Part shown: one piece after another, positions 1,589 to 7,941 of the stretch
Layout of the letters: each line of letters opens with the position of its first letter
Numbering within the stretch: the stretch's first letter is position 1
DNA from: Burkholderiales bacterium
GTDB lineage: Bacteria > Pseudomonadota > Gammaproteobacteria > Burkholderiales > SG8-39
Length of the DNA: 64,000 nucleotides
Assembly: GCA_014860445.1 (NCBI GenBank)
Contig: JACZJT010000032.1
Location: forward strand, 200,268-264,267
Direction: 5' to 3'
The notes under the pieces: generated by a model
What the model was told of the DNA's origin: nothing
The model's input: only the letters and a program-made list of their open reading frames with translations
Databases searched by the model: none
Position numbers and translations under genes: made by a program

Positions 1589-3418
1589 TTATTTCCGGGC
1601 TTCGAAAAACCGGTAGGTGCCGCCCGCCTGCTTGGCTTCATACATCGCGGCGTCCGCGGCCTTGACCAGCGCGTCGGCGTCGTCGCCGTCCGCCGGATAG
1701 ACGGCGATGCCGATGCTGGCGCCGATTTCAACCGAGGTCCGCTCCGCACCGAGTTCGAAGGGCACGCCAAGCGCGGCGATGATCTTTATTGCGACGATTT
1801 CCGCTTCCTCGCGCCTGGCGATTTCAGGCAGGATCACCGTGAATTCATCGCCGCCGATGCGCGCCACCGTGTCCGATTCGCGTACCTGGTGACGGATTCG
1901 CGCGGCAAGGGCTTGCAACAACGCGTCGCCTGCGCCATGTCCCAGGGTGTCGTTCACCGGTTTGAATTTATCCAGGTCGAGGAACAGCAGCGCGAACTGG
2001 CGGGAATCGCGTTTGGCAAGACGGACCGCCTGATTCAGCCGGTCGTTGAACAGCAAGCGGTTCGGCAGGTTGGTGAGGCTGTCGTGATGCGCGACGCGCT
2101 GGATGCGCTCCTCCGCGAGTTTGTGCTCGGTGACATCGGTGGTCACCGCGAAACAGCCCATGAATCTTCCTTGGTCGCCGAACTGCGGCAGCAGCGTGAC
2201 CTCGATGTGGCGCGTTTCGCCGTTTGCAAGCACGCTCGCCCTTTGGTAGCTGACCGGATGCCCCTGCATCGCACGCAGGAAATGGCCTTCAATTTTCCGG
2301 TAGGATTCCTCCCCCAGTACCTCCCGCACGTGCTTGCCGATAATTTCCTTGCCGGCAAGGCCGAAAAATTCGATAAACACCTTGTTGGCGAAACTGCAGC
2401 GCAGGTTCTCATCCCAGTAAACGGTCATTGCGGGGATGTTGTCGGTGAACAGACGCAGCTTTTCGATGCTTTCGCGCAAAGCCTGCTCGGTCTGCTTGCG
2501 TGCGGTGATGTCATTGGCGGTACCGCGATATCCCGTGAATTTTCCCCGGGCGTCAAACTGGGGCTCGCCGCGTACGCTGTACCAGCGCAAGCTGCCGTCG
2601 GCGACGGCGATCTGGTATTCAAAGTCAGTGAACGCGCGGTGTGCCTGCAGCGTCGCCCGGTGCTTCGCCCATTCCGCATCGTCGAGCTCGATAGGCAGTT
2701 CCCACCTGGGTTTGCCCAACGCCTCGTTGATCACGAATTTGCCCTTGTTCTCTAGTCCGCCGGACATGACCGTGAAGCGGAAATTCGCGTCTTGCTCCCA
2801 ATACCAATCAGACGACAGTTCCGCCACGGCACGAAAGCGCAGCTCGCTTTCGCGCAATCTGCGCCTGAGCGTGTTGATCTGACCGCCGATGATGCCAAAA
2901 CCGGGAAGGAGCCCCGCGAGTACCAGCCAGCTCATCCATTCGAGGGGCACATCGCGGATGGTTTGCGGCCGCAGATGCATCAGCAGATTGATGACTAGCG
3001 CATAGGCGGCGAGGGTGTAGAGCGTGACAAAGGTGAATTCGCGCATGTTGAAGCGAAATACGCCGAACAGAAACACGACGAAGCAGCCGAACAGGGCGAT
3101 ATTGCGTCCGTCGTCCATGTGGTAGACGATGAACATCAGAACGCTGATCGCGCTCAGAACCTGAAAGCGGGTCAGGCTGGGATCAGCAAAGCGCAGATTG
3201 AAGCCGGAACGGATTGCCGCGTACACGCCGAGGTTGATCGCAAGATAGGCAAGCGCGACTTCCATCATTGCCGCTGCCGGGAGGACGCCGAACAACCAAG
3301 TCACCGCCACGAGTGCCGTGGACGATAAATAGCTGAGCGCGGCGAGACCCAGGCGGCGCAGGCGCAGCGCCTGCTTGGCGTCGAGCGAGGGCGGGATCAG
3401 GAGCGTGGCAAGGTTCAT
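1589..3418 (-). CDS. membrane PAS-PAS-GGDEF diguanylate cyclase
   Basis: The 609-residue protein should make cyclic di-GMP from two GTP. The N-terminal ~170 residues form a five- to six-helix membrane region, followed by two PAS domains (about residues 195-310 and 325-440; the second contains the ITARKQTEQ-like linker before it) and a C-terminal GGDEF domain. The catalytic GGDEF sequence is intact near residues 522-526. The RxxD inhibitory site (RESD) lies exactly five residues upstream, so product inhibition is expected. No EAL domain follows. The ATG at 3418 (MNLATLL) was chosen because the longer frame upstream is low-complexity and lacks a ribosome binding site. It is divergent from the tetR gene. 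Confidence 0.9.
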   Translation of the reverse strand: MNLATLLIPPSLDAKQALRLRRLGLAALSYLSSTALVAVTWLFGVLPAAAMMEVALAYLAINLGVYAAIRSGFNLRFADPSLTRFQVLSAISVLMFIVYHMDDGRNIALFGCFVVFLFGVFRFNMREFTFVTLYTLAAYALVINLLMHLRPQTIRDVPLEWMSWLVLAGLLPGFGIIGGQINTLRRRLRESELRFRAVAELSSDWYWEQDANFRFTVMSGGLENKGKFVINEALGKPRWELPIELDDAEWAKHRATLQAHRAFTDFEYQIAVADGSLRWYSVRGEPQFDARGKFTGYRGTANDITARKQTEQALRESIEKLRLFTDNIPAMTVYWDENLRCSFANKVFIEFFGLAGKEIIGKHVREVLGEESYRKIEGHFLRAMQGHPVSYQRASVLANGETRHIEVTLLPQFGDQGRFMGCFAVTTDVTEHKLAEERIQRVAHHDSLTNLPNRLLFNDRLNQAVRLAKRDSRQFALLFLDLDKFKPVNDTLGHGAGDALLQALAARIRHQVRESDTVARIGGDEFTVILPEIARREEAEIVAIKIIAALGVPFELGAERTSVEIGASIGIAVYPADGDDADALVKAADAAMYEAKQAGGTYRFFEARK

Positions 3419-3619
3419 GTTCGATGGCGATTGCAATCGTCGGATTGAATCGGTACTCCTCGGTGCTTGCCTCGAATGTCTTGTTCGGTATTGCCGGCGG
3501 CACGCGGGCCGGCGGGAGAGTCGAGGTACCTGCTGCGAATTATGTGCCGGTGGCGCCGCGGGCAGCCATATTTCACAAAATTTCACGCAACTCGTGTTTC
3601 GCGTGCTCCCGCCCGGACG

Positions 3620-3648
3620 TTGACCGATCCCGAAAAACGGTTTATAAA
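3620..3648 (+). promoter_or_regulatory. sigma-70-type promoter of the tetR gene
   Basis: TTGACC at 3620-3625 and TATAAA at 3643-3648 are separated by exactly 17 bases and lie 36 bases before the tetR ATG. The -10 box overlaps the left arm of the palindrome at 3644-3669, the geometry expected for autorepression. Seen by eye; no transcript data. Confidence 0.6.
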
Positions 3649-3669
3649 GCAAACAGTCGTTTGTTTTAT
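3644..3669. promoter_or_regulatory. TetR-type operator palindrome
   Basis: A 26-base inverted repeat has 11-base arms matching at 10 of 11 positions around a 4-base AGTC spacer. Its core is CAAAC-N4-GTTTG (3650-3663). This core fits the G/CAAAC-N2-4-GTTTG/C pattern described for PsrA, a TetR-family fatty-acid regulator of Pseudomonas. It sits 15 bases before the tetR start and over its -10 box, so it is probably the site where the TetR protein binds its own promoter. Confidence 0.65.
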
Positions 3670-3684
3670 TTATATCCGGACCCC

Positions 3685-4269
3685 ATGGCACAGACCCTAC
3701 GCGTCTCACGCAGCGACAGCCGCCTGCCGCAAATCCTCGACGAGGCGGCGCGCCTGTTTCGCGAAAAAGGCTATGCGGCGACGTCGATGCGCGACATCGC
3801 CGCGGCGGTGGACATGCTGCCCGGGTCGCTCTATTACCATTTCGCTGCCAAGGAAGATCTGCTGGTCGCGGTGTACGAGGAGGGGGTGCGCCTGATTTCC
3901 GAAAAAGTGCGCGCCGCCATCAGCCGGCACGAGGAGCCCTGGCAGAAACTGGAGGCGGCCGCCGTCGCGCATCTGGAAGCCTTGCTCAAGACCGGCGACT
4001 ACGCGCTGGTGGTGATCCGCGTGCTGCCGCAGGATGTGCCCAAGGCGGCGGCGCGCCTGGTCAAATTGCGCGACAGCTATGACCGCCTGTTCGCCGAGCT
4101 GGTGGCGGCCTTGCCGCTGCCGCCCGAAACCGACCGCCAGAGCTTCCGCCTGCTGCTTCTGGGCGCGCTCAACTGGAGCCAGCACTGGTTTCGCGAAAGC
4201 GGCAGAAACTCTCCGCGCAGCATCGCGCGCAGCTTTCTCAGGCTGCTGCGCGAGGAGCAGAAGACATGA
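3685..4269 (+). CDS. TetR/AcrR-family transcriptional regulator
   Basis: This 194-residue protein has a classic TetR N-terminal DNA-binding domain: residues ~12-58 read ILDEAARLFREKGYAATSM, then IAAAVDM and SLYYHFAAKEDLL. The C-terminal two thirds are helical and would bind a ligand, plausibly an acyl-CoA given the neighbours; they resemble the KstR2-like group in general style only. The ATG at 3685 gives a normal-length protein beginning just before the HTH; longer upstream starts would run through the promoter and operator. It is the first gene before the acyl-CoA mutase operon and is the probable local repressor. Confidence 0.9.
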   Translation: MAQTLRVSRSDSRLPQILDEAARLFREKGYAATSMRDIAAAVDMLPGSLYYHFAAKEDLLVAVYEEGVRLISEKVRAAISRHEEPWQKLEAAAVAHLEALLKTGDYALVVIRVLPQDVPKAAARLVKLRDSYDRLFAELVAALPLPPETDRQSFRLLLLGALNWSQHWFRESGRNSPRSIARSFLRLLREEQKT

Positions 4270-4284
4270 GTTGGACTCTGAGAA

Positions 4285-4367
4285 TTGTCATTCCGAGGCC
4301 TGTGGCCGAGGAATCTGCTTTCTTAGAGCCCGTAAAAGCAGATTCCTCGCTTTGCTCGGAATGACAG
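4285..4367. repeat. REP-like palindromic repeat (TCATTCCGAG family)
   Basis: Two nested inverted repeats make one ~83-base element. The outer arms TGTCATTCCGAG (4286-4297) and CTCGGAATGACA (4355-4366) are perfect, and so are the inner arms GAGGAATCTGCTTT (4308-4321) and AAAGCAGATTCCTC (4335-4348). Similar TCATTCCGAG...GAGGAATCT palindromes are scattered through many bacterial genomes. It lies between tetR and the mutase operon and could fold in RNA. I see no second copy in this window. Confidence 0.75.
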
Positions 4368-4425
4368 AATTGGGATTATCTGAGATGCCCGTAGAAGATT
4401 TATCGACCTTTTTAGGCAGCGCGCC

Positions 4426-4842
4426 ATGACCACGCAACCACCCAAGGTTCTTGTGACCAAAATCGGCCTGGACGGCCACGACCGCGGCAGCCGCGTGGTT
4501 GCTTCCGCTTTGCGCGATGCAGGCATGGAGGTGGTCTATACGCCGCCCTGGCAGGACATTGCCGCAGTGGTGAAGCTGGCGATGGAGGAGGACGTCGATG
4601 TGATCGGCGTGTCCTCGCTGGCAACCGACCACCTGATCGTGCCCAAGCTGATGCAGGCGCTGCGCGCGGCGGGGCTGCAGGATATCGCGGTCATCGTCGG
4701 CGGCATCGTGCCCGACGCGGACGAGGCGAAGCTGCTCGAGGCCGGCGTGGCGAAGGTATTCCATCCGGGCAGTTCGCTGGCGGACATTGCGGCGGAGGTT
4801 GGCCGGCTGACGCGCGCGCGGCGCGCGCTCAATGTTACATAG
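4426..4842 (+). CDS. B12-binding small subunit of an acyl-CoA mutase
   Basis: The 138-residue protein is a stand-alone cobalamin-binding domain of the methylmalonyl-CoA mutase type. The base-off/His-on motif DxHxxG is intact at residues 16-21 (DGHDRG), so His18 should ligate cobalt. The later SSL and VIVGG segments match the nucleotide-loop pocket. A separate small subunit is the arrangement seen in isobutyryl-CoA and 2-hydroxyisobutyryl-CoA mutases rather than in fused methylmalonyl-CoA mutase. It is followed after 12 bases by the large subunit and should form a heteromer with it in the cytoplasm. Confidence 0.92.
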   Translation: MTTQPPKVLVTKIGLDGHDRGSRVVASALRDAGMEVVYTPPWQDIAAVVKLAMEEDVDVIGVSSLATDHLIVPKLMQALRAAGLQDIAVIVGGIVPDADEAKLLEAGVAKVFHPGSSLADIAAEVGRLTRARRALNVT

Positions 4843-6544: not shown

Positions 6545-6979
6545 ATGTCGGCCGAAACGGCAATCGAGACCTATCGCGGCGTGGTCTATCCGTGGCACCT
6601 GGACCAGATGGATCATATGAATGTGCAGTTCTACACCGCTTTCTTCGATGCGGCGACCTGGCATTTTTTCGCGGCGCTCGGGATGACGACCAGCTATTTC
6701 AAGGTGAACGGGCGCGGCATGGCGGCGCTGGACATGCGCACGCTTTTCAAGCGCGAACTGCATGCCGGTGCGCTGGTGCGCATCACCTCTGAATTGCTCG
6801 AAGCAAAGCCGAAGACCATCCGCTTCCTGCACCGCATGTATGAAAGCGAAGGCGGGGGCGAGGCGGCCACGGCGGAAATCGTCGGCGCACACATCGACAC
6901 CGCGGCGCGCAGGTCCGTGCCGTTTCCGGAGGACATCGTCCGACGGCAAAACGACTTTATCGGCAGGCGCGCAGGATAG
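6545..6979 (+). CDS. hotdog-fold acyl-CoA thioesterase (4HBT/YbgC-like)
   Basis: The 144-residue protein carries the opening motif of the 4-hydroxybenzoyl-CoA thioesterase family: VYPWHLDQMDHMNVQFYTAFF, whose Asp in the DQMDHMN block corresponds to the usual catalytic Asp. It should hydrolyse an acyl-CoA to the free acid and CoA in the cytoplasm. The ATG at 6545 lies 10 bases after the mutase stop and is preceded by a GGGGGCGAG-like ribosome binding site. Tight linkage to the mutase suggests that the mutase substrate or product is its target, which is inference. Confidence 0.88.
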   Translation: MSAETAIETYRGVVYPWHLDQMDHMNVQFYTAFFDAATWHFFAALGMTTSYFKVNGRGMAALDMRTLFKRELHAGALVRITSELLEAKPKTIRFLHRMYESEGGGEAATAEIVGAHIDTAARRSVPFPEDIVRRQNDFIGRRAG

Positions 6980-6981
6980 TC

Positions 6982-7941
6982 ATGAGCGCGGGATTGCAGG
7001 CCGATGCGAACCCGCTGGCCGCCATCCTCGCCGGCGAGCGCCGGGCGCTGGCACGCGCGATGTCTGCAGTCGAGAACGAAACCGCCGCAGGCAAGGCGCT
7101 GCTGCATGAATTGCAGCCGCACCTCGGGCGCGCGCGCGTGCTCGGCGTCACCGGCCCGCCCGGTGCCGGGAAGTCCACGCTGGTCAGCGCGCTGATCGGC
7201 GCATGGCTCTCGCGTGGCGCGACCGTCGGCGTGGTGGCGGTCGACCCGTCTAGTCCTTTTTCCGGCGGCGCAATCCTCGGTGATCGCATACGCATGGGTG
7301 CGCACCAGGCGGACGAACGCGTGTTCATTCGCTCGCTGGCTTCGCGCGGCCATGGCGGCGGCTTGTCGCGCACCGCCGCGCGGGTCATCGATCTGCTCGA
7401 CGCGGCCGGCTACGACCAGATCATCGTCGAGACCGTTGGCGCCGGGCAGTCCGAGGTCGAAGTCGCGGAAATCGCCGATACGCGCGTCGTGGTCTGTCCG
7501 CCCGGCCTCGGCGACGAGGTGCAGGCGCTCAAGGCGGGCATCCTGGAAATCGCCGACATCCTGGTGGTCAACAAGGCCGATTTGCCGCTTGCGGATCGCA
7601 CCGAGCGGGAACTGCTGGCCATGCTTTCGCTGCGGCATTACGACGTCTGGACGCCGCAGGTTCTGCGCACGATCGCGACCAGCGGCGAGGGCGTGGCCGA
7701 ACTTGCGGATCTGATCGAGCGCCATGCGCTCGCCTGCGCCAGCCAGCGGCGCTCGCACGGCGGCCGCGTGCGGCGGCTGATTGCGGCTAGCGCTGCAGAT
7801 TGGGTGAAGCGGCGCGTCGAGGGCCTTGCCGGCGATGAATTCGAGGAACTTTGCGCCCGGGTGCAAAGCGGCGAACTCGACTACGCCAGCGCGGACCTGC
7901 GCGCGGTCGCGCTCGTTCTGCGCGCCGAGAAGCAAGCTTGA
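6982..7941 (+). CDS. meaB: MeaB/ArgK-family G-protein chaperone of the mutase
   Basis: This 319-residue GTPase of the MeaB/ArgK/MMAA family protects B12-dependent acyl-CoA mutases and gates cofactor loading. Visible motifs are the Walker A GPPGAGKST near residue 52, the VAVDPSSPFSGGAILGDRIRM segment (Mg and base II region), the ETVGAGQSE switch, and NKAD for guanine recognition. It begins two bases after the thioesterase stop, so it is cotranslated with the mutase, the classical partnership. Length and motif order are normal. Its stop TGA overlaps the TTG start of the following exporter. Confidence 0.95.
   Translation: MSAGLQADANPLAAILAGERRALARAMSAVENETAAGKALLHELQPHLGRARVLGVTGPPGAGKSTLVSALIGAWLSRGATVGVVAVDPSSPFSGGAILGDRIRMGAHQADERVFIRSLASRGHGGGLSRTAARVIDLLDAAGYDQIIVETVGAGQSEVEVAEIADTRVVVCPPGLGDEVQALKAGILEIADILVVNKADLPLADRTERELLAMLSLRHYDVWTPQVLRTIATSGEGVAELADLIERHALACASQRRSHGGRVRRLIAASAADWVKRRVEGLAGDEFEELCARVQSGELDYASADLRAVALVLRAEKQA

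Follow-up and report, generated by a model that had tools for sequence, protein, structure and literature searches.

A putative, conserved TetR operator with a PsrA-type core on the promoter of a B12-dependent acyl-CoA mutase operon

The 22 bp at positions 3646 to 3667 of the window, the 64-kb stretch of DNA analyzed here, very probably form the operator of an autorepressor, the dedicated TetR protein encoded just downstream, which would keep the tetR-mutase-MeaB operon repressed until released by a CoA thioester from the mutase pathway. Judged by its sequence, the site is a genuine and well-conserved TetR operator. An earlier note labeled it PsrA-like, which is correct only as far as the core goes, and proposed an acyl inducer, which is plausible. 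In the proposed mechanism, which is ordinary for TetR proteins, a TetR dimer would cover the start-site region along with the end of the -10 box and, once bound, would block RNA polymerase and so repress its own gene together with the rest of the operon. Release would come from a small ligand, for which a CoA thioester from the mutase-containing pathway is the most likely candidate.

A palindrome on the promoter of a tetR-mutase-MeaB operon

The promoter described in the earlier note, TTGACC-17-TATAAA just before tetR, is present at 3620 to 3648, and the ATG of tetR at 3685 lies downstream of the -35 hexamer, the -10 hexamer, and the core (Table 1). TTGAC-N18-TATAAA occurs once in the 64 kb when both strands are searched, as does the exact core CAAACAGTCGTTTG, found in the window only at 3650 to 3663. 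From the -10 box, transcription is predicted to start near 3654 to 3656. A promoter scan of 3400 to 4500 listed no promoter; the scan accepts a -10 box only if its sixth base is T, and TATAAA ends in A.

The site had been described as a near-perfect 26-base palindrome with its core laid over the -10 box. A palindrome is indeed present, but the wording is generous, as the 26-mer at 3644 to 3669 pairs at 10 of 13 positions and is one of 31 26-mers in the window that pair as well or better. Likewise, the outer AAA (3646 to 3648) of the 22-bp operator does overlap the -10 hexamer, whereas the core itself begins 1 nt past it. The palindrome by itself is unremarkable, and the window sequence, taken alone, would make only a weak case. 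That the site is almost certainly not a product of chance rests on its conservation and not on the palindrome.

The genes follow in the order tetR, small subunit, large subunit, 4HBT_2 thioesterase, and MeaB GTPase, then an EamA transporter gene, and those from tetR to meaB are predicted to be co-transcribed. The divergent neighbor of tetR encodes a PAS-GGDEF protein (1589 to 3418). The TetR_N helix-turn-helix (HTH) scores 66 bits against PF00440 (cut-off, 24). The REP/MITE-like element after tetR has 76 match rows in the source genome, mostly both strands of palindromic copies; in several close relatives (L035 to L037, L041), the tetR and small-subunit matches are just 38 nt apart.

Table 1. 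Features of the operator, promoter, and operon, with window coordinates
Feature	Position	Strand	Evidence
-35 hexamer TTGACC of tetR promoter	3620-3625	+	Sequence
-10 hexamer TATAAA of tetR promoter	3643-3648	+	Sequence; 17-nt spacer from -35
22-bp operator AAAGCAAACAGTCGTTTGTTTT of mutase-operon TetR, putative	3646-3667	.	Conservation; extended motif once in source genome
Core CAAACAGTCGTTTG (CAAAC-N4-GTTTG)	3650-3663	palindrome	Sequence
tetR, proposed dedicated repressor (TetR_N + TetR_C_24), 194 aa	3685-4269	+	Pfam PF00440, PF17932; NCBIfam; model pLDDT 91.7
REP/MITE-like palindromic element (inverted repeat) between tetR and small subunit gene, outside operator	4283-4372	.	Source-genome matches
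Small, B12-binding acyl-CoA mutase subunit, 138 aa	4426-4842	+	TIGR00640, PF02310
Large subunit of unusual acyl-CoA mutase, 561 aa	4849-6534	+	PF01642; clade-specific active-site residues
4HBT_2 thioesterase	6545-6979	+	PF13279; start codon inferred by eye
MeaB-type GTPase chaperone	6982-7941	+	TIGR00750, PF03308

The putative operator is conserved before orthologous tetR genes

A scan of a wider collection gave 270 relatives, and the loci described below include the best 80 of these (66 to 91% identity); more distant cassettes fall outside them. The order tetR, small subunit, large subunit, meaB is found in 66 of the 80 loci, and several of the other 14 end at contig ends. By tblastn, MeaB has a match in 75 of the 80 and the 4HBT_2 thioesterase in 7.

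The earlier note had named absence of the motif upstream of orthologous cassettes as evidence against the operator. Instead, 63 of 70 orthologous tetR-mutase cassettes have at least 9 of the 10 core bases upstream of tetR, compared with 9 of 1,440 base shuffles made from 72 upstream regions (8 at 9/10 and 1 at 10/10). This presence before most orthologous cassettes, together with the sequence itself, supports reading the site as a TetR-type operator that lies on the promoter of tetR. The best 14-mer core match is 10/10 in 48 cassettes, 9/10 in 15, 8/10 in 6 (L045, L075, L076, L085, L088, and L099), and 7/10 in 1 (L009). Among the seven below 9/10, L076 has a symmetric core variant (CGAACGATCGTTCG), and the others include weak sites. 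The scored region ended at residue 15 of tetR and comprised at most the 300 nt preceding it. From 84 loci considered, 10 without a usable tetR match and 2 with too little upstream DNA (L063 and L086) were removed, leaving 72 that were scored; L049 (tetR cut by the contig end) and L094 (a duplicate of L007) were then dropped, and L058 (a weak, partial tetR match) was retained among the 70. A random-window control, in which 28 of 1,433 windows matched at 10/10 and 9 at 9/10, was set aside, since these windows probably largely overlap the operator itself. Across the 80 fetched loci (best 80 of 270; 896,720 bp, with a few duplicates), 47 of 48 exact cores lie at tetR starts, and the reversed control gives 0.

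For a sequence logo, the 70 were reduced to 67 by omitting L009, L085, and L099, and near-identical sites among these were merged to 62, one of two tied registers being used for L088. This merging reduces relatedness among the sites without fully removing it. The prevailing pattern over the 62 nonredundant sites is WWA-V-CAAAC-R-N-N-Y-GTTTG-B-T-W-W. TTGAC stands 25 to 38 nt upstream of the core in 34 of the 62, with a window-like layout (30 nt between TTGAC and the core) in L007, L008, L035, L037, L038, and L040 to L044. A second layout, with a -10-like box one base downstream of the core, is found in 19 sites, 2 of which also have an upstream TTGAC; here the right half-site may supply the TG of an extended -10. 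Layouts were thus recognized in 51 of the 62 sites and neither layout in 11. Operator and promoter thus remain together under differing arrangements. In the regulator, 7 of the 10 recognition-helix positions (residues 44 to 53) show little or no variation across 47 TetRs.

The extended motif is nearly unique in each genome and follows tetR

Further copies of the motif, which the earlier note suggested looking for, were found in the source genome (4.61 Mb) for the bare core, with 6 copies versus 2 for a reversed-pattern control. This excess vanishes when one mismatch is allowed (100 matches versus 106 in the control), and the bare core is therefore weak evidence. Of the five exact cores besides the window site, two fall within open reading frames (L001 and L004), two lack the extended flanks and stand some 170 and 125 nt upstream of plausible gene starts (L002 and L115), and one precedes a PsrA-like gene (L003). 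The extended motif WWAVCAAACRNNYGTTTGBTWW, built from the orthologous promoters and searched with up to one mismatch, occurs once in the source genome, at the window site (control, 0). The 100 versus 106 matches and the single extended site rule out a wide regulon in this genome.

The same search, with up to one mismatch, was applied to 50 cassette-bearing genomes (the first 5 and 45 further ones). As the motif was derived from tetR promoters, it matches there by construction, and its scarcity elsewhere is the informative part. Genomes G000, G271, and G132 each have one extended site, at tetR; G011 has one away from tetR, its own tetR site having diverged; and G010, whose contig ends inside the mutase gene, has none. 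In the 45 further genomes there are 43 extended sites in 39 genomes, 38 of them at the tetR promoter, compared with 1 for the reversed control. The six without an extended site divide evenly: three (G336, G344, and G340; loci L101, L105, and L110) have cassettes with no tetR match despite at least 2.5 kb of upstream DNA, and three (G325, G330, and G335; loci L077, L089, and L099) have tetR beside the cassette. In L077 and L089 the core is retained but its flanks have diverged; in L099 the tetR and mutase genes are 0.6 kb apart, and a weight-matrix scan finds an operator-like site before the small subunit gene. The 25 loci of other mutases in the order, 111,602 bp in all, contain neither the exact core (0/25) nor a tetR match (0/25). 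A weight-matrix scan of 1,056,312 bp at scores of at least 13 gave 92 matches, 78 of them near tetR (three permuted controls, 5, 4, and 20); matches away from tetR were considered only above a score of 24. At about one site per genome, the extended motif is specific enough for finding the whole regulon.

Extra sites in relatives adjoin acyl-CoA catabolic genes

Beyond the tetR promoters, six sites were found in the 50 genomes, four of them by acyl-CoA catabolic genes. Two (L193:6816 and L194:9495) lie between the start of a BktB-like thiolase gene and those of genes assigned by eye to a LIV-type ABC importer, whose substrate-binding protein in L193 matches PF13458, with AMP-ligase genes near both and acyl-CoA dehydrogenase genes also near the L194 site. 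A third (L196:242) precedes a thiolase gene of the same BktB-like type, and a fourth (L195:6067) is where two carboxyltransferase genes, with inferred start codons, begin divergently. L193:9460 is an intact operator before a second, truncated copy of the mutase tetR (minus strand). The last, L160:3129, precedes a gene run (L160:1-3150) that adjoins the mutase cassette. This run codes for an M24 peptidase, a PaaI-type thioesterase, and a flavodoxin-like protein and ends with a PduO-type cobalamin adenosyltransferase, the enzyme that would supply the mutase with its cofactor. The source genome has no second extended site, and its best match to the extra-site thiolase is 40% identical, so the catabolic link comes from the relatives only.

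The core is of the PsrA type, the flanks and the regulator are not

As claimed in the earlier note, the core CAAACAGTCGTTTG fits the PsrA half-site pattern, published as G/CAAAC(N2-4)GTTTG/C (PMC13104628, PMC10304680). A PsrA site in the strict sense is not supported, however: its flanks differ, and its regulator is PsrA-like in the HTH only. Against the PsrA model NF053516 (cut-off, 300), the window TetR scores 34.4 bits over residues 15 to 80, whereas another TetR of the source genome scores 158.8 bits over residues 4 to 208, below the cut-off of this Vibrio model. These scores rule out PsrA orthology of the window TetR. The PsrA-like TetR has an upstream site of its own, TTCAAACGCTTGTTTGAA (TTCAAACN4GTTTGAA type; L003:1501-1514); downstream of its gene lies an acyl-CoA dehydrogenase-like gene, judged by eye.

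PsrA-type genes of the order gave 37 matches, 30 with loci, of which 5 lacked the HTH by pattern and 25 were scored; the 23 with at least 9/10 core bases were used. All 23 sites (TT-CAAACN4GTTTG-AA) have T at -1 and A at +14, compared with 0 of 62 mutase-TetR sites for either base; the window site has G before the core and T after it. The published PsrA site on Pseudomonas putida rpoS is TTCAAACN4GTTTGAA, as in the PsrA-type sites of the order, and the Pseudomonas aeruginosa psrA site is reported as GAAACN4GTTTC, so that PsrA sites vary between groups (PMC13104628). Going by these sites, whose counts are uncorrected for kinship, the two TetRs share a core and probably discriminate by the next base pair. 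The genome thus offers a testable case of two TetRs with the same core operator that are apparently kept apart by a flanking base pair.

The mutase belongs to a clade with its own active-site residues

Among 300 genomes of the order, a mutase match at an E value of 1e-100 or below is present in 27; 5 of these, the source genome included, are at 68 to 100% identity, and none of the other matches listed exceeds 40%. All 83 orthologues examined have Leu, Cys, Asn, and Gln at the positions of methylmalonyl-CoA mutase (MCM) Tyr89, Asp118, Leu119, and Tyr243, and in 82 of 83 those of Phe117 and Arg207 are Pro and Asn. The 25 other mutases of the order keep Asp118 in 25/25 and Tyr243 in 23/25. Besides these Leu, Pro, Cys, Asn, Asn, and Gln residues, the clade has a one-residue insertion (GTSNQSD).

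Neither the MCM residues Tyr89 and Arg207 nor the 2-hydroxyisobutyryl-CoA mutase (HCM) residues Ile90 and Asp117 are kept in the window mutase, which speaks against either identity. For MCM, Tyr89 and Arg207 are replaced by Leu88 (L in 83/83 orthologues) and Asn205 (N in 82/83); for HCM, Ile90 and Asp117 are replaced by Leu88 (L in 83/83) and Ile115 (I in 72/83, L in 11/83). Because the MCM Arg is absent, a dicarboxylic substrate such as methylmalonyl-CoA seems unlikely for the window mutase. The best PDB match of the large subunit is HcmA (4r3u; E value, 1.5e-114).

Several neighborhoods in the relatives have further features. The MeaB GTPase frame at L162:11102-12604 seems, by eye, to continue into a PaaI-type thioesterase domain, a possible fusion. 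A downstream gene at L161:2343-3392, with a similar gene at L162:10059-11102, encodes a protein without a Pfam match at an E value of 1e-5 or an NCBIfam match at 1e-20. Near the cassette in four loci is a protein (L095:11280-12062) that by eye resembles 2-ketocyclohexanecarboxyl-CoA hydrolase; this hydrolase-like neighbor hints at alicyclic acid catabolism.

Fold and candidate ligands of the TetR protein

The TetR model is confident (pLDDT 91.7). Its top fold match by Z score is the AibR-isovaleryl-CoA-DNA complex (5k7z; Z, 20.2; root mean square deviation, 2.4 over 179 residues), nearly tied, within about 1 Z, with a Bordetella TetR (20.0), PfmR (19.3), FadR (19.2), and DarR (19.1). By sequence profile, the best PDB match is DarR (E value, 3e-31), followed by AibR (1.7e-24). 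The step from motif to fatty-acid inducer taken in the earlier note does not follow from the motif by itself, as AibR, FadR, PfmR, and the c-di-AMP sensor DarR match the fold about equally. Such a fold would permit an acyl-CoA ligand without proving one, and the gene neighborhoods make an acyl-CoA likelier; taken together, the two make an acyl-CoA inducer plausible.

Discussion

Three other readings of the site were weighed against an operator of the dedicated TetR. A functionless palindrome that happens to fall on a promoter would account for the ordinary pairing, equaled or bettered within a group of 31 26-mers of the window, and for the lack of enrichment of the one-mismatch core in the genome; its probability is nonetheless negligible, given its retention upstream of tetR in 63 of 70 cassettes, under two promoter layouts, and its near-uniqueness in each genome. 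It is also very improbable that the site belongs to the global regulator PsrA and places the mutase operon in a PsrA fatty-acid regulon. The identical 14-bp core pattern speaks for this, as does a PsrA-like TetR with its own TTCAAACGCTTGTTTGAA site in the same genome, but the T at -1 and A at +14 that mark 23 of 23 PsrA-type sites (core at least 9/10) occur in none of the 62 mutase-TetR sites. Moreover, the site follows tetR, and the extended motif is missing from the genomes of the three tetR-less cassettes.

A weightier alternative, though still an unlikely one, is that the TetR binds the site and responds to something other than an acyl-CoA: a second messenger, as DarR does, a free acid, or a drug-like compound. 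DarR, a c-di-AMP sensor, is the best PDB profile match (E value, 3e-31), and a GGDEF gene lies divergently next door (1589 to 3418). On the other hand, the published DarR operator, ATACTN4AGTAT (PMC10636190), differs from the window operator. No GGDEF protein was recognized by eye among the 40 neighbor clusters listed for the relatives, and four of the six extra sites are by acyl-CoA catabolic genes.

With a CoA-thioester-responsive autorepressor as the preferred reading, a broader proposal is possible, if not quite probable: an undescribed catabolic regulon in which a dedicated TetR has a PsrA core but is distinguished from PsrA through the flanking base pair, responds to the CoA substrate of a B12-dependent carbon-skeleton mutase that catalyzes a novel reaction, and, in some relatives, also controls importer, thiolase, carboxyltransferase, or cobalamin adenosyltransferase genes. 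Among the titles and abstracts searched, we recognized no work on TetR control of such a mutase or on this mutase clade. The regulon offers a route to the substrate of an uncharacterized clade of B12-dependent acyl-CoA mutases found on contigs of at least 80 genomes.

Comparison with known systems

Among solved mutases, the 2-hydroxyisobutyryl-CoA mutase HcmA (4r3u) is the nearest relative of the window mutase, whose active-site residues differ from it. Among regulators, AibR of Myxococcus xanthus, an isovaleryl-CoA-responsive TetR (5k7f, 5k7h, and 5k7z), has the highest Z score, tied with others, and the window TetR is 26% identical to it. Bacillus FadR, Thermus PfmR, and mycobacterial FasR and KstR2 have the same fold (Z about 18 to 19) at about 18 to 24% identity. 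These four are TetRs of fatty-acid or steroid metabolism and probably use operators other than the window type. DarR of actinobacteria, a c-di-AMP-responsive TetR and the best profile match, also recognizes an N4-spaced palindrome (PMC10636190). PsrA of Pseudomonas and relatives, also of the TetR family, has the same core pattern on its own promoter (PMC13104628, PMC10304680). Compared with PsrA, the mutase TetR has flanks that are never T/A in the order, about one site per genome, and a regulator match confined to the HTH.
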